Of a stretch of DNA of 64,000 nucleotides, positions 8,742 through 52,045 are shown in pieces (the stretch's first letter is position 1; every line of letters starts with the position of its first letter). The translations under genes were made by a program, and so were the position numbers. The notes beneath the pieces were generated by a model. The model was not told the origin of the DNA. It saw nothing but the letters and a program-made list of their open reading frames with translations, and did no database searches. This stretch comes from Nocardioides iriomotensis (lineage in GTDB: Bacteria; Actinomycetota; Actinomycetes; Propionibacteriales; Nocardioidaceae): positions 1 through 64,000 of the forward strand of contig NZ_SDPU01000034.1 of NCBI RefSeq assembly GCF_004168035.1, read 5' to 3'.

Positions 8742-10654
8742 GCACCACACCGATCGCCGACCACGCGCTTCTCTCGGACTGCCACTCCAGCGCGCTCGTG
8801 AGCCGCGACGGGTCCGTCGAGTGGCTGACCTTCCCGCGGTTCGACAGCCCGTCGGTCATGGCTCGCCTGCTCGACGACGACCGCGGCGGCCACTGGGCCA
8901 TCACGCCGGTCGGCGCGTACGAGACCACCCGCCGGTACCTCGACGCGACGATGGTGCTCGAGACGACCTTCACGACGGACTCGGGGACCGTCGTGCTCAC
9001 CGACGCGCTGGCGATGGGGCCGGACGAGCAGGGCCACAGCCTCGGCAGGTCCGTCCCGCACCTGCTGGTGCGCGACCTGACCTGCACAGCGGGTGCGGTC
9101 GAAGTGCAGGTCTCCTACGCTCCCCGACCCGAGTACGGGCTCGTCGTACCCCTGCTCTCCGAGGTGCCCGGCGGGGTGACGGCCCGCGGTGGCGCGGAGT
9201 GGCTGGTCCTGACCACCCCGGTGCGCCTGGACCTGGCCGCCAGCGTCGGCACCGGCCGGGCGCGGGTCGAGGCAGGGCAGACCCTGCGGTTCGCCCTGCA
9301 CCGGACCACGCTCGAGCAGACGCCGGCCCACGTGTGGTCCGACGACGACCTGCGCGAGACGCTCGACCGCACGATCGCGGGCTGGCGGTCCTGGTCGCAG
9401 CTGCACCAGGCGTACGACGGCCCCTGGAAGGAGCTCGTGCACGCCAGCGGCCGGGTGCTGAAGGCCCTCACCTTCGCCCCGAGCGGTGCGGTCGTCGCCG
9501 CCGCGACCACGTCGCTCCCCGAAGGCGTGGGCGGCGAGCGCAACTGGGACTACCGGTACTCCTGGGTGCGTGACGCCAGCTTCACGATGGAGGCGCTGTG
9601 GGTCGCGGCCTGCCCGGACGAGGCGGACGACTTCTTCGCGTTCATGTGCACGGCGGCCGCTTCGGGTGTGGGTGCCGACCAGGCGCTGCAGATCATGTTC
9701 GGCGTCGGCGGCGAGCACGACCTCTCCGAGCGCACCCTCGACCACCTGGCGGGCTGGCGGGACAGCCGACCGGTGCGGGTCGGCAACGGTGCCTGGAACC
9801 AGCAGCAGGTCGACGTCTACGGCGAGCTGCTCGGGGCGGCCAGCCGACTGACCGACCAGCTGCGCCACCTCGACGCGGACACTCGCGCCTTCCTGGGCGC
9901 CCTCGCCGACGCCGCCGCGGTGCGCTGGCGCGAGCCCGACCAGGGGATCTGGGAGGTGCGGGGCGACCCGCAGCACTTCCTCTACTCGAAGGTGATGTGC
10001 TGGGTGGCCCTGGACCGGGCCATCGCGATGGCCGGGCTCATCGGGGACGAGTCGCGCGTGGAGAGCTGGCGCCGTACCCGCGACGAGATCGCCGAGACCG
10101 TCCTCCGGGACGGCTGGAGCGACACGGCCGGTGCCTTCACGCAGTACATCGGCACCGATGCCCTGGACGCGTCCAACCTCATGCTTCCCATCGTGGGGTT
10201 CCTGCCCGCTCGCGACCCACGCGTCCTCGCGACCATCGAGGCGATCGACGAGCGGCTCACCGACCACCGCGGTCTCGTCTACCGGTACCGCACCGAGGAC
10301 GGGGTGGACGGCCTCGCCGGCGAGGAAGGGACCTTCCTGCTCTGCACCTTCTGGCTGGCCCAGGCGCTGGCCATGGCCGACCGCGTCGACCGAGCACGTG
10401 AGGTCTTCGAGTCCGCCGTCCGCTACGTCAACGACGTGGGCCTGCTCGCCGAGGAGATCGACCCCGCGACGGGCGAGCTGCTCGGCAACTTCCCCCAGGC
10501 CTTCAGCCACATCGGACTGGTGAACGCGGCCTGGGCCATCCACGAAGCGGAGGACCGGCTCCTCGGCACCCAGGACCACGTGGGCGACACGCCGGTGCCC
10601 CCGCAGCGAGCGGCCGCGAAGGACGGCGGCACGCGAGTCGGAGGACGGCACTGA
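8738..10654 (+). CDS. Glycoside hydrolase family 15 protein (trehalase/glucoamylase-like)
   Basis: 638 residues. The N-terminal beta-sandwich begins IADHALLSDCHSSALVSRDG, as in mycobacterial GH15 trehalases. The (alpha/alpha)6 barrel has the signature GERNWDYRYSWVRD near residues 266-279. Near residues 527-540, EEGTFLLCTFWLAQALA contains the proposed catalytic glutamate. No signal peptide, so the substrate (trehalose, or short alpha-glucans) is cytoplasmic. Its ATG overlaps the membrane-protein stop. Coupling to an SDR and a GMC oxidoreductase suggests that released glucose may be oxidised further; this is inference. A strong hairpin follows. Confidence 0.93.
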   Translation: MSTTPIADHALLSDCHSSALVSRDGSVEWLTFPRFDSPSVMARLLDDDRGGHWAITPVGAYETTRRYLDATMVLETTFTTDSGTVVLTDALAMGPDEQGHSLGRSVPHLLVRDLTCTAGAVEVQVSYAPRPEYGLVVPLLSEVPGGVTARGGAEWLVLTTPVRLDLAASVGTGRARVEAGQTLRFALHRTTLEQTPAHVWSDDDLRETLDRTIAGWRSWSQLHQAYDGPWKELVHASGRVLKALTFAPSGAVVAAATTSLPEGVGGERNWDYRYSWVRDASFTMEALWVAACPDEADDFFAFMCTAAASGVGADQALQIMFGVGGEHDLSERTLDHLAGWRDSRPVRVGNGAWNQQQVDVYGELLGAASRLTDQLRHLDADTRAFLGALADAAAVRWREPDQGIWEVRGDPQHFLYSKVMCWVALDRAIAMAGLIGDESRVESWRRTRDEIAETVLRDGWSDTAGAFTQYIGTDALDASNLMLPIVGFLPARDPRVLATIEAIDERLTDHRGLVYRYRTEDGVDGLAGEEGTFLLCTFWLAQALAMADRVDRAREVFESAVRYVNDVGLLAEEIDPATGELLGNFPQAFSHIGLVNAAWAIHEAEDRLLGTQDHVGDTPVPPQRAAAKDGGTRVGGRH

Positions 10655-41678: not shown

Positions 41679-42135
41679 CCGCTGGGGGCGCGGCCTCCGT
41701 GGGTGGTTTCCACCACGCTGGTGAGCAGCGCGTCCCGCTGCGCCACGAGACCGTCGTGCGTGGTGTCAACGTCGCCGTACGAACAACTGAACGATGGTCG
41801 GTCTGGACGATCGTTTAGTCGCCGACAGCGATCTCCTCGCAGCGGGCGACGATTCGCCTGGTCGCGGCGCGGATCAGCGCCGCCAGGCCGGTCCGGAAGC
41901 GCTTCTGGGCGCTGGTGTTGCTCTGTTCGAAGGCCTCGTGCGCCTGCGCGCCAGCGATCACTGGGTGTGTCCCATTTGAGGTCGACTGCGTGTGCGGGGC
42001 AGCGAGCGGACGACTTCGCGATCGTGCGATCAGTGCGACGTCGGCGCGCCCATCGGCACATCCGACCTTCACTATCTGCGGCAAGTGCGGACGTGCCCCT
42101 TCGTGATCTCGGAAGGCGGCGATTGAAGTGAAGGG
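41679..42135 (+). other. Gene-poor left edge of the accessory island
   Basis: No confident gene in this 457-nt stretch. A short GGTGG-TTT-CCACC hairpin follows the cupin gene at 41702-41714. A minus-strand frame (41815-42084) ends in an alanine/arginine-rich helix (KRFRTGLAALIRAATRRIVA) and may be a decayed gene end. The island repeat begins at about 42050. GC is lower than in the preceding genes. Confidence 0.5.
42051..42097 (+). repeat. Island repeat, copy A
   Basis: Core CCTTCACTATCTGCGGCAAG. Outer arms pair in 9 of 10 positions: GGCACATCCG at 42055-42064 with CGGACGTGCC at 42088-42097. CATCGG lies at the left edge. Confidence 0.85.
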
Positions 42136-42957
42136 CTACGTGAGGAACTCCCGCACCGCCGTGAGAACGTCGTCACGGCGGTCGATGAACAGATAGTGGC
42201 TGGCGCGGATCTCCAGGACGCGAGCATCGGCCGTCTCGTCTAGAAAGCGGTCACGACACGCGACCCGCCACGTACCCTCAGCCCCCTGCCACTGGTCCCC
42301 GAGGGCGAACATGGCTAGCGCGGGCACGGCGATGTCGGAATAGGGGTGCCGGAACGCCTTCAGTGCTTCGACGAACGGCGCAGCGGCCGCGGCGGAGAAC
42401 TTGTCCACCACTGACCCGTCCGCCTCGATGTACACGGAGGTGCTCAACATCGCGTCGAAGGCAGGGCCCCGGATGTCGTCGGCGAACAACGAGTAGACGG
42501 CCTCGACATAGGCCCCGTACGAGGCGAACCGGTCCGGGATCGCTGGCTCTTCCGACCACTCCGATGTAGGGCGGTCGGCCCAGTCGTAGGCCCCGTCGAG
42601 GTAGACGATCCTGCCAATGCGTCCGGGATGGCGAGCGGCAAGCGCAGATGCCTCACCCCCTCCCATCGAGTGCCCCACGACGTGGGCACGCTCGATGCTC
42701 ATAGCATCGAGCAGGCGTCGCGCGTCCTCCGCGGCATCGACGAGCGCGTAGCCGCTCTGGACCTGATCGGTCAGCCCGTGTCCGCGCCGGGTCAAGGCGA
42801 GAACTCGGAACCGGTCGCTCAAGTGAGGGGCCAACTCCGCAAAGACGTGCGCGGTGCAGCCCAGGCCGGCCAGGAACAACACTGGCTCTCCGTCGCCGCC
42901 CCAGTCCAAGTAGTGGAAGCGGACACCGTCAAGGATGACGAACTGGTCGGGGGGCAT
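42136..42957 (-). CDS. Alpha/beta hydrolase
   Basis: 273 residues from the ATG at 42957 (MPPDQFVILDG). An in-frame ATG at 43086 lies inside an island repeat and would add a tail with no family resemblance. Oxyanion region VLFLAGLGCTAHVFAELA, nucleophile elbow VVGHSMGGGEASALAARHPG (Ser), catalytic His in IRASHYLFIDRRDD. Soluble single-domain enzyme; substrate unknown. It is flanked by repeats A and B, as one cassette-like unit. Confidence 0.9.
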   Translation of the reverse strand: MPPDQFVILDGVRFHYLDWGGDGEPVLFLAGLGCTAHVFAELAPHLSDRFRVLALTRRGHGLTDQVQSGYALVDAAEDARRLLDAMSIERAHVVGHSMGGGEASALAARHPGRIGRIVYLDGAYDWADRPTSEWSEEPAIPDRFASYGAYVEAVYSLFADDIRGPAFDAMLSTSVYIEADGSVVDKFSAAAAAPFVEALKAFRHPYSDIAVPALAMFALGDQWQGAEGTWRVACRDRFLDETADARVLEIRASHYLFIDRRDDVLTAVREFLT

Positions 42958-43077
42958 GTCGATTTGACCTGGCACTCGGTGACTGTACCGACGAGCGACG
43001 ACGTAGACAGGAGCTTTGATCGGGCACCCGGCCGCTTCACGGCCGTAGGCACCTGTCGGAATCGGCACTCGCCAGGC

Positions 43078-43128
43078 CGCGCTCATCGGCAGGTCCGAAC
43101 CTTCACTATGTGCGGCAGATGTGTGCGC
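43078..43128 (+). repeat. Island repeat, copy B
   Basis: CGCTCATCGGCAGGTCCGAA followed by CCTTCACTATGTGCGGCAGA. Arms pair weakly: GCGC with GCGC and CATC with GATG. CTCATCGG contains a reverse-strand ATG (43086) that opens the frame of the hydrolase on its left. Confidence 0.8.
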
Positions 43129-43152
43129 TATGTCGCAGTTGGATCGGCCACG

Positions 43153-43392
43153 TCAGGAGTAGCGGTGGCTCTTGGCCGCGTGACCGTCTTCGCGTGTGCA
43201 AGTGCGCCCGCTGATTGCACGATGGCCACACAGCTGCACCAAGGATTCGGCTTCGGGAAGCTCGACCGCGGTCGACTTTGGAACTGGCCGCTCTTCCTTC
43301 TTCGGCGCACTCACGCGGTGGCCGGCAGCGCGTGCCACCGCCTGCTCATAGCGGGCCTCACGCAGGGCGCGCAGATCATCCATCTTGCTCAT
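43153..43392 (-). CDS. Small basic protein with C-terminal Cys/His cluster
   Basis: 79 residues from ATG 43392. N-terminus is helical and charged (MSKMDDLRALREARYEQAVA). The last 30 residues hold LCGHRAISGRTCTREDGHAA and a further His, which looks like a small zinc-binding site. I have seen similar Cys/His tails in actinobacterial hypothetical proteins but cannot name a family. It sits between repeat B and a partial repeat at 43515. Confidence 0.55.
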   Translation of the reverse strand: MSKMDDLRALREARYEQAVARAAGHRVSAPKKEERPVPKSTAVELPEAESLVQLCGHRAISGRTCTREDGHAAKSHRYS

Positions 43393-43514
43393 CGCGTACT
43401 CACCGCACGACCGTAGTTTGGACGCGGTACAGAGTGCGGCAGGCGCCCCCGAAACATCCGAAGAGTGGCCCCGCACGCGGGCGGAAGTGGCGAAATCGGA
43501 ATCGCACTATCCAG

Positions 43515-43537
43515 CGGATCGCGGCAGATCTGGATGT
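43515..43537 (+). repeat. Island repeat, partial copy P
   Basis: CGGATCGCGGCAGATCTGGA retains the GCGGCAGATC part of the core without the TTCAC lead. Probably a decayed copy. Confidence 0.5.
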
Positions 43538-43540
43538 TCA

Positions 43541-43624
43541 TCACCGGCGGAGTCGAACCACGGCTAGGGCCACGCAGAGGACCCCCGCAATGACGAGGAA
43601 AGCGCCCAACCCGCCCGCCGCCAT
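43541..43624 (-). CDS. Possible very short membrane peptide, or remnant
   Basis: From ATG 43624 it encodes 27 residues (MAAGGLGAFLVIAGVLCVAL plus a basic tail), a single membrane helix. The frame extends up to 43723 and a neighbouring frame also encodes a hydrophobic end, so this looks like a small or broken membrane gene. The rest of the 43393-43874 gap shows only repeats P and C. Confidence 0.25.
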   Translation of the reverse strand: MAAGGLGAFLVIAGVLCVALAVVRLRR

Positions 43625-43800
43625 CCCGGCGCCGTAACTAACGGTCAGACCGAGATTCCGGCAATAGCCAGGGTGACGCCGAGGCACCCGAGTTGCACAA
43701 GCGCAGCCGGGACAGGAGGTCACGTCGCCAGCGACTGCCTGCCGCCCCCGTCATGGCGCCAGCCTTGGACGAGCGCCGTCAGTAGTCAACCTGCTCTTTC

Positions 43801-43862
43801 CGCGCGCATCCGAACTTCGGCGTGGTCGAGGCTTCACTGTCTGAGGCATGTGCGGACGTCAC
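43801..43862 (+). repeat. Island repeat, copy C
   Basis: Core CTTCACTGTCTGAGGCATG followed by TGCGGACGTCACG. The inner stem GTCTG/CGGAC forms with one wobble. A left segment TCCGCGCGCATCCGA partly matches the reverse complement of the right arm. Confidence 0.75.
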
Positions 43863-43874
43863 GCTGGCGTGACC

Positions 43875-44417
43875 TCAGAGGTACCGGCCACCGTCTTGGT
43901 CTCGATTGGGCGTGACATCGCCGACCCTGTTCAAGATGACTTTGAGCGTGACCTCCAGGTCCGCGGTGCCGTCGAGTACGACTTCACCGGGAACGCTGAG
44001 AGTGTCGGACTGGACGTACCACTCGCGGAACGTGTCCGCTGAGATCTCTGCCCCGAGTGGCCGAGTCGCATGCCTGCGCAGCGTCTCCTCCAGCGGCACA
44101 TCAAGGTAGAACACGTGGGTCGGGCCGGGGTGCTCGGCGAGGATCTCGCGAAGCATGTCGCGGTAGTGCTTCGCCACGAGAATGCCCTCGACGATGACGT
44201 TGTTGCCGATGCTGGCGCAGTAGCGGACGGTGTGGGCGATGAGCCCGATGTTCTCCCCGCCCGCTACATCGTGCTCGCGCAAGATCACTCTCCGGAAATG
44301 GTCTTGCTCGACATTCGCCGTACCTGGCCCCAGTGCGCGTTGCAGCGCCGCCGCCAAGGTGCTCTTGCCTGACGCCGCGTTACCTCGCAGCACAATCAGG
44401 TGAGGCGCGTTCTCCAC
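43875..44417 (-). CDS. P-loop kinase-like NTPase (AAA-17/zeta-like)
   Basis: 180 residues from GTG 44417. Walker A is LIVLRGNAASGKSTLAAALQ at residues 7-26; GNNVIVEGILV and THVFYLDVPLEETLRRHATR (kinase lid with arginines) follow. This resembles nucleotide or small-molecule kinases such as chloramphenicol phosphotransferase and zeta-type enzymes. No antitoxin partner is present, so a toxin role is not supported. Flanked by repeats C and D. Confidence 0.85.
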   Translation of the reverse strand: MENAPHLIVLRGNAASGKSTLAAALQRALGPGTANVEQDHFRRVILREHDVAGGENIGLIAHTVRYCASIGNNVIVEGILVAKHYRDMLREILAEHPGPTHVFYLDVPLEETLRRHATRPLGAEISADTFREWYVQSDTLSVPGEVVLDGTADLEVTLKVILNRVGDVTPNRDQDGGRYL

Positions 44418-44465
44418 GTCACAGACGCTAGTGGTTGTCTCGTCCTCAACCTGGCACGACCGCGC

Positions 44466-44484
44466 GGACGCCAGCAGATCCGGT
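44466..44484 (+). repeat. Island repeat, partial copy D
   Basis: GGACGCCAGCAGATCCGGT keeps the CAGATCCGG end of the element. Assignment is tentative. Confidence 0.35.
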
Positions 44485-44487
44485 TGC

Positions 44488-44688
44488 TCAATCTAGGTAG
44501 CCGGTGGTCGAGTTGATGCTCGCCAGGAAGTCTCGGATTTGCTCAACCAGTTGAGCCTCAGTGGAGAACTGCCCGTCAGAGCGCCGGCATGTGAACCCGT
44601 AGCCAGGGTTCGGTCCGGACGCCCACGTCAAGTGGTGTTGTCCTGGATGGTCCTCCGACGCGGTGACATCGAAGTCCTCACCGTCCAC
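44488..44688 (-). CDS. Small unrecognised protein
   Basis: 66 residues if GTG 44688 is used; the frame extends to 44838. It reads VDGEDFDVTASEDHPGQHHL, TWASGPNPGYGFTCRR and EAQLVEQIRDFLASINSTTG, like an immunity-protein or DUF-sized single domain. It overlaps the preceding reading frame by 11 nt, suggesting a coupled pair. Confidence 0.5.
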   Translation of the reverse strand: MDGEDFDVTASEDHPGQHHLTWASGPNPGYGFTCRRSDGQFSTEAQLVEQIRDFLASINSTTGYLD

Positions 44689-44998
44689 CGAGATACGCCC
44701 AGATACGAACGGCTGCACGGCTGCAATCCTGACATTCGCACTGCTGACGGCGCGCGCAACGCGGCAAATCCGGGCGTTCAGCCTTTGCCACCAGGGACTT
44801 CGCGCTCGCGACGACCGGACACTGCGGCCGTGGCGCATCGACGCCGTCTACCTGTTCGACGCGCAGGCCCGCCTCGCGCAGCAGCGCGGCCGCGGCGTGA
44901 AGACGGGCGTCGCCGCCGGTGTACAAGCCGAGCAATGGGAGGCCGCCGAGATCCATCCGGCCCAGACCTGCGAGGCCCTCGTCCTCAGCGACCAACAA
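44678..44998 (-). CDS. Possible small protein upstream of 44488-44688
   Basis: About 106 residues from TTG 44998, preceded by a stop. The first half (LVAEDEGLAGLGRMDLGGLP, AAALLREAGLRVEQVDGVDA) looks like real coding sequence; the C-terminus is cysteine-rich and less convincing. No ribosome site is clear. It may be a truncated gene. The region 44999-45118 to its right shows no gene. Confidence 0.35.
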   Translation of the reverse strand: MLVAEDEGLAGLGRMDLGGLPLLGLYTGGDARLHAAAALLREAGLRVEQVDGVDAPRPQCPVVASAKSLVAKAERPDLPRCARRQQCECQDCSRAAVRIWAYLGGR

Positions 44999-45118
44999 CG
45001 GGAGCAGCTGCGGCTGTTCAGCGACTGAGCCCTAGGCTCGACCCAGGGCGCGGACCGGCCTGCGCAACCCGCAGGTTGGCGCCGTGTGATGAGGAGTCCG
45101 ACCACCTGATCACCTTTC

Positions 45119-45154
45119 GGCTCCCCGCGTGTCTCATCGGACGCGCGGGGAGCC
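45119..45154 (-). terminator. Terminator hairpin of the FAD oxidase gene
   Basis: 11-bp perfect stem GGCTCCCCGCG (45119-45129) and CGCGGGGAGCC (45144-45154), loop 14 nt, 30 nt beyond the stop at 45185 on the minus strand. Confidence 0.7.
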
Positions 45155-45184
45155 GTGCTGCTGCTGTTGCCGGGCTGCAAGCGG

Positions 45185-46588
45185 TCAGGGTGTCGCCGGC
45201 GCGATGGTGACGCTGCCGCGGAACATGTTGCCGGGGTCGTACGTCGCCTTCAGGTGGCGCAGCCGGCCGGCCTTGTCGGCGCCGTACAGGTACCGGGCCG
45301 GGTCAAGGTCGTCTACGTCGGCCGAGCCGTTGACGTACGAGCCGTCCCTCGCCGCGTACGGCCGGAGGGCCGCGACCATCGACCGCACCCAGTCGCGTTC
45401 GGCGGGGAGCATCTCCGCGGCGGGGCAGACGCCGATCACGAACGTCGCGAAGCGTGGCGAGCGTCCGCCGCTGAAGGACGTCGCGTCGTCGGTGACGCGG
45501 CTGTAGGCGCCGTCGAGCCGGTAGAAGAGGGCTAGTGACAGCGGGGACTGCTTCTTCGGGAAGATCTCGGTGACCGCGTCGATGACGCCGTCGGACAGCT
45601 CCTCGACGTAGCAACCCTTGTCGTAGGCGTGGAAGCCCCACGCGTTGGCCTCGTCGAGCATCTTCTGCAGCTCGACGTACGGCATCGGCGAGGCGAAGTC
45701 CACCGCGGGCGGTATGGCGGCGCGGGCCCGGTCGAGCACGGCGGCGTGCTCCTCGGGTGCACCGAAGCCGACGACGATCATCGCGTAGCCGGGCTGCAGC
45801 TGGTGCTCCTCGGGGACGAACGGCGCCGGTGGTGCGTTGAGCCCGCCCACGATGACGTTGACGTCGTCGGGCAGCGTGGCGATGACCTCGCGTGCGTGGC
45901 GGAGGACTGCCGGACCCTGGTCGAGTCCCCAGAACAGCAGGCCGAACTGGACCATCGGACCGGCCTCGTGCAGGGCGAGCTCGAACTCCGTCACCACGCC
46001 GAAGTTGCCGGCGCCGCCGCGGACGGCCCAGAAGAGGTCTGGGTTCTCCTGGGCGGACGCGCGCCGGGCCTCTCCGTCGGCGGTCACGACCCGGGCGGAC
46101 ACCAGGTTGTCGATGGTCAGCCCGAACTTGCGGGTCAGCCAGCCCATGCCGCCACCGAGGGTCAGGCCACCCAGGCCGGTGTGGCTGACCAGGCCAGTGG
46201 GGACCGCGAGCCCGTATGCCTGGGTCGCGGCGTCGACGTCGCCGAGCAGTGCGCCTCCCTGTGCCGTGGCGCGACGGGCTTCGGGGTCTACGGTCACGCG
46301 GTTCATCTGGCTCAGGTCGACGACGATGCCGCCGTCGACGACGGAGGCGCCGGACATGCTGTGTGCGCCGCAGCGGACCGCGATCCGGAGGTCGCGTTCC
46401 CGGGCGAACCGGACCACCGTCTGCACGTCGGCCTCGTCGGCGCAGCGGGCGACCATCATCGGGCGGCGGTCAATGCCGGCGTTCCAGACCCGGCGGCTCT
46501 GGTCGTAGGCCGCGTCCTGTTCGCCGATCACGTCTCCGCGCATGCGCTCTCGCAGCTCCATCACTGGGCTGTCCGCGGTCTGCGTCAT
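45185..46588 (-). CDS. FAD-linked oxidase with BBE domain (berberine-bridge/oligosaccharide-oxidase type)
   Basis: 467 residues. ATG 46588 has GGAGG 8 nt ahead; ATG 46615 is an alternative. The PCMH-type FAD domain begins RRPMMVARCADEADVQTVVR. RCGAHSMSG contains the His that carries covalent FAD in this family; the second Cys is replaced in GLGGLTLGGGMGWLTRKFGL. GGAGNFGVVTEFEL is conserved. The C-terminal BBE domain ends YDPGNMFRGSVTIAP, as in berberine-bridge enzymes. High GC unlike nearby cassette-type genes. Divergent from a truncated regulator. Confidence 0.93.
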   Translation of the reverse strand: MTQTADSPVMELRERMRGDVIGEQDAAYDQSRRVWNAGIDRRPMMVARCADEADVQTVVRFARERDLRIAVRCGAHSMSGASVVDGGIVVDLSQMNRVTVDPEARRATAQGGALLGDVDAATQAYGLAVPTGLVSHTGLGGLTLGGGMGWLTRKFGLTIDNLVSARVVTADGEARRASAQENPDLFWAVRGGAGNFGVVTEFELALHEAGPMVQFGLLFWGLDQGPAVLRHAREVIATLPDDVNVIVGGLNAPPAPFVPEEHQLQPGYAMIVVGFGAPEEHAAVLDRARAAIPPAVDFASPMPYVELQKMLDEANAWGFHAYDKGCYVEELSDGVIDAVTEIFPKKQSPLSLALFYRLDGAYSRVTDDATSFSGGRSPRFATFVIGVCPAAEMLPAERDWVRSMVAALRPYAARDGSYVNGSADVDDLDPARYLYGADKAGRLRHLKATYDPGNMFRGSVTIAPATP

Positions 46589-46659
46589 GGTTGGCCTCCT
46601 CGAGCATCGCGCCATGGTGGGATCTGTTCACGCTAGGCAGTCCGACCGCGACGATGACA

Positions 46660-46675
46660 CCGCCCGATCGGGCGG
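46660..46675 (+). promoter_or_regulatory. Perfect 16-bp palindrome in the oxidase/regulator interval
   Basis: CCGCCCGATCGGGCGG, directly left of the remaining regulator fragment and 71 nt from the oxidase start. Likely an operator bound by a dimeric repressor, perhaps the one whose gene is now truncated. Confidence 0.5.
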
Positions 46676-47038
46676 TTGGGGCACGGTTCTTTGCGACTCA
46701 CGCTCTCCACGCGCAGCGAGGACTTCCGAACTCGCTGGGCCTCCCCTGACGTCCGCATCCACGCCACCGGCACCAAGCGGCTCCACCACCCCATCGTCGG
46801 CGACCTGGACCTCTCCTACGAGTCCCTCCCCATGCCCGACCCGGGCCAGAACCTCCTCGGCTACGTCGCCGAACCTCACAGCCCGTCCAACGACGCGCTC
46901 AACCTCGCCAGCTACGCCGCCACCCACCACGACGGCACGAACGACGCACACCAGGCCAACCGAGAGCACTCCACCGACAGCTCCGACCAAGCCCATCCGG
47001 ATCTCGGCATGTTCGCGCATTCACTGTCTGCGGCATGA
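46676..47038 (+). pseudogene. C-terminal fragment of an MmyB-type HTH regulator
   Basis: The frame encodes LTLSTRSEDFRTRWASPDVR, TGTKRLHHPIVGDLDLSYES and PGQNLLGYVAEPHSPSNDAL, the ligand-binding C-terminal half of MmyB-type regulators that normally follow an N-terminal helix-turn-helix of about 100 residues. No such start lies upstream, and the remnant directly abuts the palindrome. The last 25 residues are altered, and the stop lies within repeat F (TGA 47036-47038). This is a truncated partner of the divergent oxidase gene. Confidence 0.8.
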
Positions 47039-47060
47039 GCGGACGCTCGCATGTCGGTCC
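47001..47060 (+). repeat. Island repeat, copy F
   Basis: Core TTCACTGTCTGCGGCATGAG followed by CGGACG. Inner stem GTCTGC/GCGGAC. Outer arms CGGCATG (left) and CATGTCGG (right) pair with one G-T. The core supplies a stop for the left frame and an ATG for the right. Confidence 0.88.
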
Positions 47061-47079
47061 TCCATGCTGTGATTCGCGA

Positions 47080-47484
47080 GTGCACAAGGTTGTTGTCGGC
47101 GCGCTGGTCCGTGACGGCCGAGTCCTGCTCGGGTATCGGAGTTCGAACAAGCGTGCGTACCCGAATGTCTGGGATCTGCCCGGTGGACTCATGGAGGCGG
47201 GCGAGTCGGAGCTCGACGCCCTCGCGCGAGAGCTTGACGAAGAGCTCGGGGTGCAGATCGCGACCACCTCCGCATCTCACCTTTGCCGGCTGACCGCTGG
47301 ACCCGCAGACGAGCCGGCACTCCTCAGCGCCTGGCTCGTGCGCGGATGGCAGGGCACGCCGGCGAACGTCGCTCCCCAGGAGCATGACGACATCGGGTGG
47401 TTCGGCCTCGAGGAGTTACCTCCGCTCGCCCACGTCCCCGTGCGTACGGCTCTGGTGCAAGCGGTACAGAGCGGCCGCGGATGA
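47080..47484 (+). CDS. NUDIX hydrolase
   Basis: 134 residues from GTG 47080; ATG 47035 lies inside the repeat. The Nudix box GGLMEAGESELDALARELDE, continuing ELGV, meets Gx5Ex7REUxEExGU. The N-terminal strand is HKVVVGALVRDGRVLLGYRS; C-terminus WFGLEELPPLAHVPVRTALV. It hydrolyses nucleoside-diphosphate derivatives, perhaps 8-oxo-nucleotides or NDP-sugars. Flanked by repeats F and G as a one-gene unit. Confidence 0.9.
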   Translation: MHKVVVGALVRDGRVLLGYRSSNKRAYPNVWDLPGGLMEAGESELDALARELDEELGVQIATTSASHLCRLTAGPADEPALLSAWLVRGWQGTPANVAPQEHDDIGWFGLEELPPLAHVPVRTALVQAVQSGRG

Positions 47485-47487
47485 ACG

Positions 47488-47546
47488 CGAACGCGCTCGC
47501 AACGGGGCGTCCGACCTTCACTGTCGGCGGCATGACCGCGCGTTCG
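47488..47546 (+). repeat. Island repeat, copy G
   Basis: Arms CGAACGCGC (47488-47496) and GCGCGTTCG (47538-47546) are perfectly complementary over 9 bp, while the core CCTTCACTGTCGGCGGCATG is shared with other copies. The arm sequence differs from every other copy. Confidence 0.92.
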
Positions 47547-47576
47547 ACCCGTCCGCCCGCACGTTAGGTTGCTGAC

Positions 47577-48115
47577 ATGGACACCGCCCTGGACACCGCG
47601 GTCTTGTTGACCGCGGAGTCGCTGGGTTGGTTCACCGACCGGTGGCGAGGCCAGTCCGTCTTGCCGGTTGACCCGCCGCTGGCGCTGAGCGACGCGATCC
47701 CGCCTCATTTCACCTTGCTGAGCCCCTGGCACCTGGACCCCGGCAGCGAGGAGGCATCGAGCCGTTTACATGAGGCCACTCGCTCAGTCGCGCCGTTCCG
47801 GCTTCGCTTCACCTCGGTCGGGACCTTCCCCACGGGCCACGTCTACCTACAGCCGGAACCCTCGTCCGGACTGGACGCGTTGTTCGCCGCGCTCACCGCA
47901 GCGTTCCCAGAGTTCCCTCCGTACGGCGGGCCTTCGCCGAGTGGCTGCCTCATCTGACGGTCTCCCGGAGGGGCGGTGAGCCCGCCGCCCGTGAAGTGCG
48001 CGCTGAACTCGGGGCTTGCGCCCCTCTGGACCTGGACGTGTGGGAGGTATCCGCGTGGGAGTACCTCGCCAGCGGTCGCTGGGTCAAGCACGTGACCGCT
48101 CCTCTGGCTGGGTAG
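47577..48115 (+). pseudogene. 2'-5' RNA ligase family protein with frameshift
   Basis: First HxT motif is PPHFTLLSPWHL, near residue 44. The frame stops at 47957, but a shift of -1 near 47929, where GGG is read instead of GGGG, continues as FAEWLPHLTVSRRGGE with the second HxT, and ends at TAG 48113. The two-HxT phosphoesterase domain is then complete at about 178 residues. A missing G in a homopolymer could be an assembly error or a genuine lesion. The normal role is 2'-5' RNA ligation or cyclic phosphodiester hydrolysis. Confidence 0.8.
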
Positions 48116-48176
48116 CCGCGCGCTCGTCGGTTCCGGTTACCTGTCCGCGGCATGTGCGGATGTCCGGGTCGGCTAC
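48112..48176 (+). repeat. Island repeat, copy H
   Basis: Core CCTGTCCGCGGCATGTGCGG with inner stem GTCCGC/GCGGAT. Outer arms GTAGCCG (48112-48118) and CGGCTAC (48170-48176) pair perfectly. The left arm includes the TAG stop of the 2'-5' ligase. Confidence 0.88.
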
Positions 48177-48195
48177 GAACCTCGTCTCCGGCGGC

Positions 48196-48822
48196 TCACG
48201 CGAGGTGGCTGACGTCGTTGAGCTGCGCCAACTGGTGGCTGAAGTTGCGAGAGTCCTTCCGGAGCACAGTGATGCTCCCTGAGGAGACCTGGAAGTTGAC
48301 CAGGCCGGCGGCGTCGATCGGCATGCCGATCCATGCCGCGATGAGGAGGGTGCTGGTGCCGCCGTGGGTCACCAGGATGTGCTGCTCGTGGGGCGAGTGC
48401 TGGAGGCCGTCAATGACGCGGTACGCCCGTTCTGCCAGATCCATTCTCGTTTCGGCGCCGGGGATTCCTTCGTCGTGGCGTAACCGCTCGCCAATTTCGG
48501 GAAGTGGAATGACGCGCTCTGTCAGCCACGCGCGAGGCTTGCCTTCGGCCTCCCCATAGGACTTCTCACGTAGGTCGGGGTCCAGTGTCACGTCCATCTG
48601 CAGCCTCTTGGCGATGACCTCCGCGGTCCGCCGCGCACGCAGCAGGTCCGAGCTGAGGATCTCGGCCGTTGCTCCGTCGAGACGCGTGACGAGCGAGGAT
48701 GCGATGGTCTCGGCCTGCTCGACGCCCCGCTCAGTGAGGTCGGAGTCGAACCACCCACCCACGACGCCGTGAATGTGATGGGTGGCTTCCGGATGCGTGA
48801 CAACGTAGATGCTCTTCGACAA
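48196..48822 (-). CDS. Histidine phosphatase family protein with altered RHG motif
   Basis: 208 residues. TTG 48822 is chosen because AAGGAG lies 6 nt upstream. The family motif RHGET is replaced by THPEAT in IYVVTHPEATHHIHG. The second His is kept in HILVTHGGTSTLLIAAWIGM, and arginine in SDLLRARRTAEVIAKRL. Loss of the first Arg may lower or change phosphatase activity. It could act on a phosphosugar or be a non-catalytic relative. Flanked by repeats H and I. Confidence 0.87.
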   Translation of the reverse strand: MSKSIYVVTHPEATHHIHGVVGGWFDSDLTERGVEQAETIASSLVTRLDGATAEILSSDLLRARRTAEVIAKRLQMDVTLDPDLREKSYGEAEGKPRAWLTERVIPLPEIGERLRHDEGIPGAETRMDLAERAYRVIDGLQHSPHEQHILVTHGGTSTLLIAAWIGMPIDAAGLVNFQVSSGSITVLRKDSRNFSHQLAQLNDVSHLA

Positions 48823-48890
48823 CGAAGCTCCTTCGGGGCCGCCCAGGCAGTGAGATCGTATTCGGTCCGAACTGCTCGACACTCCACATT

Positions 48891-48944
48891 CGGTCATGGG
48901 CAGGACAGCACTTTCACTGTCCGCGGCAGATCCGGACGTGCTCC
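48891..48944 (+). repeat. Island repeat, copy I
   Basis: CTTTCACTGTCCGCGGCAGA followed by TCCGGACGTGCTCCATG. Inner stem GTCCG/CGGAC. Outer arm GTGCTCCATG pairs with left CATGG and AGCAC, with a 7-nt bulge. Confidence 0.82.
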
Positions 48945-48971
48945 ATGGGCTTAATTTCTACACTTTGGCCC

Positions 48972-49199
48972 ATGGCGAGGGATCACCTGTCACGGCTGCA
49001 AGCGACGATGGAGTCGGCAGCCGCATTCGCCGACTCATTGGTCGGGTTGCCCATGAAGGAAGCGGAGAGACTGGCTGCCTCTGACGGCAAGTACATCGAG
49101 ATCATCCCGGCCTCGAACATCGTCTCCGCCGACCTGGATGCCAAGCGGATACGCGTCCGCCTCAACGGAGATGAGATCGTCGAGGCCAAGGCCGGGTAA
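48972..49199 (+). CDS. Peptidase-inhibitor I78-like small protein
   Basis: 75 residues from ATG 48972. DSLVGLPMKEAERLAASDGK, YIEIIPASNIVSADLDAKRI and RVRLNGDEIVEAKAG match the short I78/potato-inhibitor-type layout, in which a central exposed loop binds a serine protease. No signal peptide, so the target would be cytoplasmic. Assignment is moderate. Confidence 0.65.
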   Translation: MARDHLSRLQATMESAAAFADSLVGLPMKEAERLAASDGKYIEIIPASNIVSADLDAKRIRVRLNGDEIVEAKAG

Positions 49200-49202
49200 T
49201 CA

Positions 49203-49270
49203 GTCGGGCGTGCGCAACCGCTGGCCCGCGCGCTATCTGCGGTATGTGCGGTCGCTTCTTGTGTCCCGAC
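49203..49270 (+). repeat. Island repeat, copy J
   Basis: Core GCGCTATCTGCGGTATGTG. Nested arms: GTCGGG (49203-49208) with CCCGAC (49265-49270), and GCG-CA-ACCGC with GCGGTCGC (49248-49255), the CA being unpaired. Confidence 0.86.
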
Positions 49271-49321
49271 GATGAGGGCGATCCACTTCCCGTCTGGCGG
49301 CGACAACGCCAGAATGCGCGC

Positions 49322-49609
49322 ATGGCCGTCGTCCTCAGACTCACCGTCTCACCCGCGACCCAGGAGCAGTTCAACGTGCTGGACGATCGGGTGGGGGAAG
49401 CCATGACGGCCGCCGGAGGGCCACCTGCCGGGCTGATGTCCCATGTGGTCTATCCGGAAGGCGAAGGCTTCGTCGTGGCCGGAGTGTGGCGCTCGGAGAC
49501 CGAGGGCCGTGACTACGTTGACGGCCGATTACGGGAACTGATAGCGGAAGTCGACCTGACCCCCGGGGAGACCGACGTAGTGCCCGCGTGGTCTTTTGCC
49601 CGGCCGTAA
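49322..49609 (+). CDS. ABM-like (dimeric alpha-beta barrel) protein
   Basis: 95 residues from ATG 49322. One ferredoxin-like barrel unit: MAVVLRLTVSPATQEQFNVL, GGPPAGLMSHVVYPEGEGF, VAGVWRSETEGRDYVDGRL and LTPGETDVVPAWSFARP. These small proteins form dimers; some are antibiotic-biosynthesis monooxygenase-like, but substrate is unknown. A two-unit relative is at 61501-62124. Flanked by repeats J and K. Confidence 0.75.
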   Translation: MAVVLRLTVSPATQEQFNVLDDRVGEAMTAAGGPPAGLMSHVVYPEGEGFVVAGVWRSETEGRDYVDGRLRELIAEVDLTPGETDVVPAWSFARP

Positions 49610-49640
49610 CTCTGTTTCGTCTGGCGCGGGGAGCAACCGT

Positions 49641-49697
49641 CCGCTCATCGGCAGGTTCAAGCGCTTCACGATCTGCGGCAGATCCGGTAGTCCTGCC
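49641..49697 (+). repeat. Island repeat, copy K
   Basis: Left CCGCTCATCGGCAGG and core CTTCACGATCTGCGGCAGAT. Arms GGCAGG (49650-49655) and CCTGCC (49692-49697) pair. GATCTGC/GCAGATC forms an inner stem. Confidence 0.88.
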
Positions 49698-49845
49698 CAG
49701 TCGAGGTAGAGCCGCGTCACGGTGGAAAGTTGCAGGCCTTACCTCAGCCGACGGCCGCCACGTCCCGCAGTCCTCGGAGCGCAACGAGGGAGTCTGACGC
49801 CGAGATGGTCACCTCGACCGGCCGACTTGAGGAAACGAGGTGCGT

Positions 49846-50214
49846 TCAGGTCGCTCGTTGCCGGTTCGTGGCCACGGCGGTGCGCGGCCCGGTCAGAGAC
49901 GCGACAGCAGTGGCGGTGCCGCCGAGCGTCAGCAGCACGAATAGCCACCACAACCACGCGGGTGGCGCCTGCGAAGCGGTGCGGAACACGAACAGCAGCA
50001 TGACCAGCTCGAGCAGATGGAGCACACCGAGCATGACGACCGGCCCGCGGTTGCCGGTTCGCCAAAGCCAAGCGGACCCGGCGAGGAGGAGGAGCGCGTA
50101 GAACCACGCCATCCACGGCAACTCGAGTCGGAACCCGTCAACGAACTCCAGCAGCCCCAGCGCCAACGAAAATCCGAGTAGCGCGTGCCGAGCAACGGTC
50201 ACGTTCATGTCCAT
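49846..50214 (-). CDS. Small integral membrane protein
   Basis: 122 residues with four hydrophobic segments (ARHALLGFSLALGLLEFVDG, WFYALLLLAGSAWLWRTG, VMLGVLHLLELVMLLFVFR and LWWLFVLLTLGGTATAVASL). No named family is recognised. It lies alone between repeats K and M; 49610-49845 holds repeat K and no other gene that I trust. Confidence 0.75.
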   Translation of the reverse strand: MDMNVTVARHALLGFSLALGLLEFVDGFRLELPWMAWFYALLLLAGSAWLWRTGNRGPVVMLGVLHLLELVMLLFVFRTASQAPPAWLWWLFVLLTLGGTATAVASLTGPRTAVATNRQRAT

Positions 50215-50628
50215 TCCCCCTCGTGGCTTCTTGTGGGCTCACCCACGGCGAATGTCCCACTGTCAGCGGCTGTCGTCCAGCCCTCGTAGCGAAGTCCGAA
50301 TTCCGACGTCCCCGAGGCGACGGGGCGGGGATGTGCCCGAGGTCCTGGCGGCGTTGAACGACGAGGCTGAACGTATCTCGGACGGTCGACTCGACTCGAC
50401 GCGGTGCGGACGCTGCGGCGGCGACGCCGGTCCCACGAGCCCATTCGCCGCCGCGATCGGACGTCGAGGAGCCGCACCGCGCAGCTGTCGCGTGAGGTCC
50501 GGGCTCGAGCTCGTCACGAGGGCCCCTTGAACCTGCCAAGATGCCGCATCTCAGCTGTCGTTGACACGCGATCAGCGGCATGAGCGGGCGCTTTTCCCTA
50601 CTTCGCACACCCACTCCACGGGCCACCG
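50215..50628 (+). other. Gene-poor stretch of the island
   Basis: No credible gene in this 414-nt gap. Frames are arginine/serine-rich and lack family motifs. A partial repeat, copy M, lies at its right end. Confidence 0.5.
50565..50592 (+). repeat. Island repeat, partial copy M
   Basis: ACGCGATCAGCGGCATGAGC keeps the GCGGCATGAGCGG end of the core. The TTCACTGTC lead is lost. Arms are not evident. Confidence 0.6.
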
Positions 50629-51513
50629 CTAACGAAGCGCGTTGAGTTCATCGAGGGCGCGATGGCCGCGCTGGACCACCTCTGGAACAGCATCATGACG
50701 CCCGTCACGAATGGGCCACTCGAGTTGCAGGAGGATCTGCGTCGCTGAGAGCACCGCTGCCCACTCCCACCCGACCAAGTCGAGGATTCGCGAGCATAGC
50801 CGCCTTCGGACGCCATCCAGCGGATCCTGGAAGGTGTGCCACAGGAGGGTGACGAGATCAGTCGCCCGCGTTCCGCTACCTGCGTTCCCGATGTCCACGA
50901 GCGCCACCACCGCTCCGTCCCGGACCAGGACATTGCTCGGGTTGAGATCGGCATGGACCATGTCAGGTGCCTCTCGCGGCGGCGAGGCGTCCGCACACGC
51001 GAGCCGCAGGCGCTCGACCAAGGCCAACACGGCGTCGGAATAGCTCGAGAGCTCAGCGACCGCCGATTCATGACCGGTAGCGACTCGCCAGGCATACCAC
51101 GAGTGGTCATACGGCTCGGAGGCTTGGCCAGCCTGGAGTTCGATGATGTCCATCAATTGCTCGACAAGGGTCGGGGTCAATGGAGACACGGGGGCCGCGT
51201 CAACGAAGTCCATCAGATGCCATACGTGAGTGGGTGTGGCGCCCACCCCGAGCCAGGCCGGCGTGGGATATCCGCGCCTACGCATGTGCTCGACGATTCT
51301 CTGGGCTCGCAACATGTCGTCCATGTGGCTGGGGTGTGCCCGGGGCTCTGCCTTGAGAACTGCGTCTGCCCTTCCCGCCACCTGGACGCGCATGCCACCC
51401 GCATTGACGCCTCCGGCCAAGCGACTGAGGAGAGTGACCTCCGCTCCGATCACGCTGGCCACGTCGGCCAGGACCTCGGGCGGCAACTCTTCCGGATGTG
51501 TGCCCTGGTTCAT
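50629..51513 (-). CDS. Aminoglycoside phosphotransferase family protein
   Basis: 294 residues. Kinase-like signature: AGGVNAGGMRVQVAGRADAV with the Lys in VLKAEPR, catalytic DMVHADLNPSNVLVRDGAVV (HxDxxxxN) and metal-binding VALVDIGNAGSGTRATDLVT. The C-terminal helix is typical of APH/choline kinase relatives. Resistance is possible but unproved; homoserine or other small-molecule kinases share the fold. Flanked by repeats M and N. Confidence 0.85.
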   Translation of the reverse strand: MNQGTHPEELPPEVLADVASVIGAEVTLLSRLAGGVNAGGMRVQVAGRADAVLKAEPRAHPSHMDDMLRAQRIVEHMRRRGYPTPAWLGVGATPTHVWHLMDFVDAAPVSPLTPTLVEQLMDIIELQAGQASEPYDHSWYAWRVATGHESAVAELSSYSDAVLALVERLRLACADASPPREAPDMVHADLNPSNVLVRDGAVVALVDIGNAGSGTRATDLVTLLWHTFQDPLDGVRRRLCSRILDLVGWEWAAVLSATQILLQLEWPIRDGRHDAVPEVVQRGHRALDELNALR

Positions 51514-51580
51514 CGGCTTCAGGGCTGATCACGGCTCGCATGGCCTGGTAGCCGTTCAGGTGACATGAGTGACATCGTGC

Positions 51581-51630
51581 CTGACCGTTCATCGGAACGA
51601 GCGAATCGCGGCAGATCCGGGCGGATCTAC
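51581..51630 (+). repeat. Island repeat, copy N
   Basis: GACCGTTCATCGGAACGAGC followed by GAATCGCGGCAGATCCGG. Both the TTCATCGG left part and the GCGGCAGATCCGG right part are kept; arms not clearly paired. Confidence 0.7.
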
Positions 51631-51648
51631 GCGACTGGGAGGCCAACC

Positions 51649-52029
51649 TCAGATGATGACGGCGAGCAGTGCAAACCCCAAGAACGTCAGAAGCCCGAGC
51701 ATCCAGCCGACCACCGCACCGGGAACGAAGGCGCCCTTCCAGTAGCGAACTCGGCGGGAAGCGCACGTGACGCTACCAACCGCGAGCGGGGCACTCATCC
51801 AGAGCAAGAAATCACTTCCGCTCACAGGCGCCGTCCCCAGCTGGATCTCGACCATTCCCAGTACGAGCACGCCGCCGAAGATCCATGCCAGCACGAGGCC
51901 GACGAGTGCCCCGGCCACGGAGCGATCGGGCTCGTGCTTCCAGCTGAGGAACTCTGGGCTCCGATTGCTTGCAGCAGGCACCCCGCCAAGTATTCCCTGA
52001 AGCACCGGTCTGACCACGCGCACGCTCAT
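51649..52029 (-). CDS. Small membrane protein of the island
   Basis: 126 residues. Three hydrophobic segments (VAGALVGLVLAWIFGGVLVL, FLLWMSAPLAVGSVTCASR and VVGWMLGLLTFLGFALLAVI). The ATG at 52029 falls inside repeat O (the CAT of CTCATCGG), so gene and element share bases. Unknown family. Confidence 0.7.
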   Translation of the reverse strand: MSVRVVRPVLQGILGGVPAASNRSPEFLSWKHEPDRSVAGALVGLVLAWIFGGVLVLGMVEIQLGTAPVSGSDFLLWMSAPLAVGSVTCASRRVRYWKGAFVPGAVVGWMLGLLTFLGFALLAVII

Positions 52030-52045
52030 CGGCAGATCCGGTGAA
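52021..52045 (+). repeat. Island repeat, copy O (right end)
   Basis: CACGCTCATCGGCAGATCCG closes the array. The TTCACTGTC lead is missing. No further copies were seen to the right within the window. Confidence 0.7.

Follow-up and report, generated by a model that had tools for sequence, protein, structure and literature searches.

Oriented intergenic elements of Nocardioides iriomotensis as likely recombination sites of an integron-like cassette system in Actinobacteria

The first 64,000 nucleotides of contig NZ_SDPU01000034.1 of Nocardioides iriomotensis (assembly GCF_004168035.1), hereafter the window, carry one intergenic element in 15 copies, all on the + strand and spanning 42.04-52.04 kb. 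Based on our comparison with other actinobacterial genomes, these elements are very likely the sites at which an integron-like cassette system of Actinobacteria recombines by means of a non-IntI integrase.

The element array in the window

A previous sequence-only reading of the window had listed at least 14 such copies, all in one orientation whatever the strand of the genes. All 14 were located and every element lies on the + strand; a 15th, at 44734-44779, had been missed. In the consensus, an outer left arm with the motif CGYCCGCTCATCGGCA is followed by a variable middle, the core GCGGCA, and the right arm KRWSCGGACG, while in several window copies the left motif is worn or absent. The conserved core being GCGGCA, the canonical attC boxes RYYYAAC/GTTRRRY are absent, as had been stated. 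The core TTCACTGTCTGCGGCATG has six matches in the window at no more than 3 mismatches, all on the + strand and all at 42-49 kb, compared with 0.03 in shuffled sequences, which excludes chance as their origin; the earlier reading had noticed no copies elsewhere in the window. No tyrosine recombinase is encoded anywhere on this contig, in line with the reported lack of an integrase in the window.

The sites were collected with R1, a sequence-only profile built from the elements and used for whole-genome searching. Site 1 (42044..42096) has the left motif ATCGGCA and the core GCGGCA at 42078 (R1 E 4.4e-8) and precedes an alpha/beta hydrolase cassette (42136..43086, - strand; Pfam Abhydrolase_1, 2e-22). 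Site 2 (43078..43129; core 43112), the partial site 3 (43496..43539; core 43521; E 0.0012) and site 4 (43808..43860; core GAGGCA at 43843) delimit two short intervals, 43.1-43.8 kb, in which no Pfam gene was found. The next cassette encodes an AAA_33/CPT-like kinase (43875..44417, - strand; Pfam) and is followed by site 5 (44441..44489), the degenerate 44.47-kb copy in which CAGCAG at 44472 replaces GCGGCA, and by the newly recognized site 6 (core 44761; E 3.4e-4). The interval from 44.76 to 47.03 kb is over-long at 2.3 kb, containing the gene for a 476-aa FAD-binding (berberine-type) oxidase (45185..46615, - strand; Pfam FAD_binding_4), numerous homologues of which lie outside arrays, together with the remnant of a regulator gene; it is probably not a single small cassette. 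The remnant, MmyB-like (MLTR), occupies 46676-47038 immediately before site 7 and is also listed at L080 18452-18600.

Site 7 (46996..47048; core 47030) was found both as a core match and by the genome profile search, the latter being the source of sites 2, 4, 5, 8 to 11, 13 and 14. Pfam matches identify the cassettes that follow as a NUDIX hydrolase (47035..47484, + strand) before site 8 (47492..47545; core 47527), a 2'-5' RNA ligase of the LigT family (47577..47957, + strand) before site 9 (48117..48165; core 48147), a histidine phosphatase (48196..48897, - strand) before site 10 (48889..48941; core 48923) and a potato inhibitor I-type protein (48945..49199, + strand) before site 11 (49208..49257; core 49239). 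An ATG within the core can be the start codon of the next cassette gene, as at 47035 and at other sites with GCGGCATG. Three open reading frames (ORFs) without a Pfam match encode 121 aa (49244..49609, + strand; before site 12, 49638..49693, core 49675, E 7.3e-8), 122 aa (49846..50214, - strand; before site 13, 50553..50593, core 50575) and 126 aa (51649..52029, - strand). The last of these is preceded by an APH-type phosphotransferase cassette (50629..51513, - strand; Pfam) and site 14 (51579..51623; core 51608). Site 15 (52003..52041), the degenerate 52.03-kb copy that ends the array, has only a left-type core with TCGGCA (52029) in place of GCGGCA (model E 0.36); its junction plus 69 bp is also present in an array of a congener (G002). 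Based on Pfam and the ORF list, the intervals thus mostly contain one small gene each, on either strand; the earlier description of one small gene per interval holds for most of them, the exceptions being the 2.3-kb interval and the two short ones without a Pfam gene.

Distribution of the sites

The sequence-only reading had asked whether the copies might be scattered through the genome. With R1, every match at E <0.0015 in this genome falls in one of three clusters, C28 42.0-52.0 kb (the window), C3 26.0-33.9 kb and C1 174.9 kb, each on the + strand of its contig. Arrays were likewise found with R1 in many Propionibacteriales genomes from four families, and in the 20-kb stretches examined one strand carries all sites of an array. 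Two genomes (L085, L086) have opposite-strand arrays <20 kb apart.

Searched with a 26-base weight matrix derived from the elements, array loci from many actinobacteria yielded 475 sites, whereas 383 kb of control sequence yielded none (282 kb around other query relatives, including the 88%-identical fragment L276, and 101 kb flanking further tyrosine recombinases). The median interval between sites is 722 bp. An exact-pattern scan of IMG/VR yielded no match. In one genome (G028; L082 10747-10881) a tandem 34-bp unit, CAGATCCGGGCGAGCGTAGCCGCCCTCAACGCGG, stands at cores as gene-less mini-cassettes; partial copies lie at L081 1623-1657, L080 9375 and L077 13215, and different families have the unit in common. 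The congener G002 also has a 1.4-kb duplication (L072 16286-17710 and L073 4768-6192) whose copies are 99.9% identical, lie ~8 kb apart in one array and have one end near a site; it may be an insertion sequence or a cassette.

A linked clade of tyrosine recombinases

In several relatives, members of one clade of tyrosine recombinases lie inside or adjoin the arrays. Scanning named genomes placed the clade in 64 actinobacterial loci, from Kribbella, Nocardioides, Tessaracoccus, Terrabacter, Knoellia, Micropruina, Nocardia, Micromonospora, Actinoplanes, Actinomadura, Amycolatopsis, Kineococcus, Jatrophihabitans, Pimelobacter and other genera, and 57 of these loci contain sites of >=15 bits. Relative to the integrase, 282 sites are on the opposite strand and 22 on the same, so the integrase is transcribed against the site direction. 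Integrases at ~47% identity or less have no sites in the 3-4 kb examined on their surroundings. In a tree the clade is split from the phage, Xer and no-site rows with support of 100/99, as judged from cleanly extracted clade rows only, several mis-extracted rows having been disregarded.

The clade integrases, such as that of Nocardioides flavescens (L215 9920-10864), are XerC/D-like proteins of 315-328 aa (118-123 bits). A true but very divergent IntI/attC integron, with folded single-stranded sites recombining, would share their layout of a divergent integrase, oriented sites and an attI-like half-site without the left motif. However, three full-length clade integrases score 48-55 bits against the integron integrase model TIGR02249, compared with a cut-off of 265, and no gene above that cut-off was found in 19 genomes bearing arrays or clade integrases. 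In the PDB, the closest match is XerD, which aligns colinearly, while IntI4 is matched over 65 residues only. An IntI-specific insertion in the catalytic domain has been described as essential (PMC8138268). With two homologues brought into one numbering by hand, the segment flanked by the parts that align to profile positions 166 and 237 comprises ~28 residues in the clade and 71 in IntI; from the profile-alignment coordinates, the region of the insertion is ~43 residues shorter in the clade. Together with the core GCGGCA, the absence of the insertion argues against membership in the IntI family. A structure predicted by AlphaFold for a clade integrase was of low confidence (predicted local distance difference test score 58) and was not used.

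Most clade members retain the catalytic residues, including RYDRAR. On a short contig of Kribbella antiqua (L158 967-1950), the integrase has RDDRAR and is probably inactive, as the catalytic tyrosine is replaced by aspartate. A frameshifted tyrosine recombinase within the C3 array of this genome (L068 12719-13924) was considered as the array's own integrase. It belongs to another subfamily and is taken as a passenger; its near relatives (78-82% DNA identity) are almost without sites nearby, and related copies elsewhere mostly lack arrays.

Outside the clade, the nearest relatives are integrases of Arthrobacter and Gordonia phages with 40-48% identity, the Arthrobacter enzymes reaching 48%. 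This would fit a model in which small integrative elements accrete in tandem at an attachment site of the phage type, through integrases related to those of these phages. Yet the units are of about one gene, lack an integrase and have very different contents next to a common core, and two phage loci examined have no such sites, making accretion unlikely; it differs from the cassette system mainly in emphasis and may describe its origin. The Arthrobacter phages Isolde and Tiff81 (L309, L310) each encode two opposite-strand tyrosine integrase genes ~1-1.5 kb apart, one of each pair being 48% identical to the cassette integrase. An unverified 'Bacteriophage sp.' record from human faeces (L308; MT837522.1) has a fragment of a clade integrase (75%) and no convincing sites, and is probably bacterial DNA.

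An attI-like entry site

Of 48 loci, 33 have a site of >=8 bits no more than 190 bp upstream of where the conserved part of the integrase is encoded (0.06 in random windows), with a core that points away from the integrase. Related loci match on the integrase side of this core and diverge beyond it. In Nocardia (L228/L266), 38 identical bases and GCGGCAT precede the divergence, and the same switch after GCGGCA is seen in an Actinoplanes group (L226/L234/L236/L239/L263). In Tessaracoccus (L222/L264) and Actinomadura (L250/L255), the match ends at GCGGCA with different first cassettes beyond. Only 2 of 30 entry sites have the left motif, which is background level (random 7.5%); elsewhere it is enriched, being present in 123 of 425 sites. 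The entry site is a half-site with one core only, and its relation to the cassette sites mirrors that of attI to attC.

In 25 of 49 loci, the integrase stop codon is also followed by a core at a distance of 10-75 bp (0.02 in random windows), mostly of the left type TCGGCA and in Nocardia mostly 27-28 bp from the stop. Given this core and the divergent sequence that lies beyond it in related loci (pairs at 9961-9975), the integrase gene and entry site look like a unit that can itself move. In Nocardioides caldifontis (G053), a regulator gene related to the remnant before site 7 directly adjoins the entry site.

Break points and shared cassettes

Alignment ends pooled over all matches are only 2-fold enriched near sites (0.029 vs 0.014), because most matches are ordinary genes, and a site-centred break-point test took their place. 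For 751 sites, 62 pairs were conserved only to the left of the core and 43 only to the right, with the switch inside positions +1 to +6. Mean identity in the left-conserved pairs is 0.94-1.0 at +1 to +6 and about 0.5 at +7; in the right-conserved pairs it is about 0.45 at -1 and 0.95 at +1. As the pairs were chosen by one-sided identity, only the comparison with a displaced test point is a fair test, and 100-200 bp from the core just 0-9 pairs were found. The profile and this comparison place the predicted exchange within GCGGCA, and the interval borders, which the sequence-only reading had suggested comparing with the element ends, lie inside this core.

Whole cassettes are shared accordingly. 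Kribbella antiqua (L077) and Actinopolymorpha (L085) share a 0.97-kb cassette at 93.6% identity whose flanks are unrelated, and a 0.71-kb cassette (93%) lies within an array in one genome (G101) and directly at the entry site in another (G111). One junction, in L085, has its crossover at the left core, which points to every core being a complete target. In G002, three separate arrays contain the kinase, NUDIX and APH units of the window as wholes, the APH unit between two sites, and the matches stop at cores: the kinase unit (71% DNA identity) has cores on both sides in both genomes, and the high-scoring segment pair for the NUDIX unit, 47062-47529, stops at the core at 47527. In a comparison with congeners for an empty site, the flanks were not syntenic.

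The sequence-only reading had allowed for a mobile repeat. A repetitive extragenic palindromic (REP) or miniature inverted-repeat transposable element (MITE) type repeat spreading between genes by itself would likewise be short, intergenic and repeated, with imperfect inverted arms. One strand per array whatever the gene strand, the movement of whole genes with break points in the core, and the linked recombinase clade with its entry site make such a repeat extremely unlikely, and no Rfam family matches the element. What is supported instead, as that reading had also proposed, is a capture array of a different recombinase, based on the mapped break points, the linked clade and the attI-like insertion point.

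Folding of the sites

In the site consensus, the outer arms CCGCTCAT...ATGAGCGG are complementary and enclose an unpaired centre, resembling the R box and unpaired centre of attC. This likeness could favor a divergent IntI integron, or the same cassette system with sites that have converged on attC and recombine in folded, single-stranded form. The sites had been described as looking folded. Their fold energies are, however, barely below those of shuffled sequences (mean z -0.35 vs -0.04 for controls), a slight excess at most, and no covariation was detected between the two sides of a site or between the two ends of a cassette. If cassettes closed at the core on a folded site, the right arm of site i should pair with the left arm of site i+1. 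A small initial set did show its best complementarity between the two ends of one cassette (p 0.025), but this signal was lost with more arrays (p 0.1-0.25; z -0.25). A divergent IntI integron is very unlikely, and folded single-strand exchange within the cassette system is doubtful, though less so. Since the IntI insertion is absent, the entry sites are single-core and neither folding nor covariation is supported, double-strand exchange is preferred as the probable mode.

Discussion

Comparison of sequences shows the orientation of the sites, their linkage to the integrase clade, the entry site, the crossover core GCGGCA and the transfer of units between arrays and genera. The clade integrase would recombine the entry site with cassette sites at the core, inserting circular cassettes at the entry site and cutting them out again between direct repeats; it would probably use double-stranded DNA and be a reversible tyrosine integrase of the arm-less type. 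As this genome, rated 100% complete, encodes no clade integrase, the window array is an orphan array, and its cassettes were presumably put together by an integrase that has since been lost or that acts from elsewhere.

Several points weigh against this interpretation. In addition to the missing integrase, 15 of the 48 loci show no clear upstream site within 190 bp of the integrase, the break-point pairs were selected as described above, and the support is wholly comparative. The mixed gene strands noted earlier in the window recur across arrays, where 96 genes are sense and 119 antisense relative to the site by a rough codon criterion, which differs from usual integron cassettes. The chances are about even that the system is an independent second kind of integron in Actinobacteria, derived from a phage- or Xer-like arm-less tyrosine integrase, in which the integrase gene, flanked by cores, is one of the cassettes and the whole platform can mobilize itself.

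The authors of IntegronFinder 2.0 reported no complete integrons in Actinobacteria, for reasons that were unclear (PMC9024848). A targeted search of the open-access literature in PMC, with most subscription papers and all preprints outside its scope, found no earlier description of this system. If it is real, much of Actinobacteria, including Nocardioides, Kribbella, Nocardia, Actinoplanes, Actinomadura, Terrabacter, Tessaracoccus and others, would own a gene-capture platform invisible to tools based on IntI and attC; the system would demonstrate that the logic of integrons can arise from a different integrase, and scattered single accessory genes for phosphotransferases, NUDIX proteins and other small enzymes would be accounted for. 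The prediction is simple: one enzyme, one 6-bp core, one entry site.

Comparison with known systems

Integrons share with the actinobacterial system a tyrosine integrase divergent from an entry half-site with a variable first cassette, same-strand arrays of sites bounding small, mostly single-gene units, and the exchange of cassettes between arrays and taxa, with a fixed core at the break points. The orphan arrays have their counterpart in the clusters of attC sites lacking integrases (CALINs). In contrast, IntI is recognized by its hidden Markov model score and insertion, neither of which the clade integrase has; attC is crossed at G/TT in GTTRRRY rather than in GCGGCA; attC folds while the actinobacterial sites are without support for folding; and integron cassette genes lie mostly in the site direction whereas the actinobacterial strands are mixed. 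In about half of the clade loci, the integrase also has a 3' core like that of a cassette. XerC/XerD and actinophage integrases resemble the clade in domain make-up and length but, unlike the clade, XerC/D and the examined phage loci are not linked to arrays of sites and cassettes. REP sequences, bacterial interspersed mosaic elements and other dispersed palindromic repeats are likewise short intergenic imperfect palindromes; they are dispersed, while the actinobacterial sites are clustered, oriented and appear to be the crossover points of moving genes. Given these likenesses and differences, the system appears to work like an integron while failing the tests that define the IntI/attC family.

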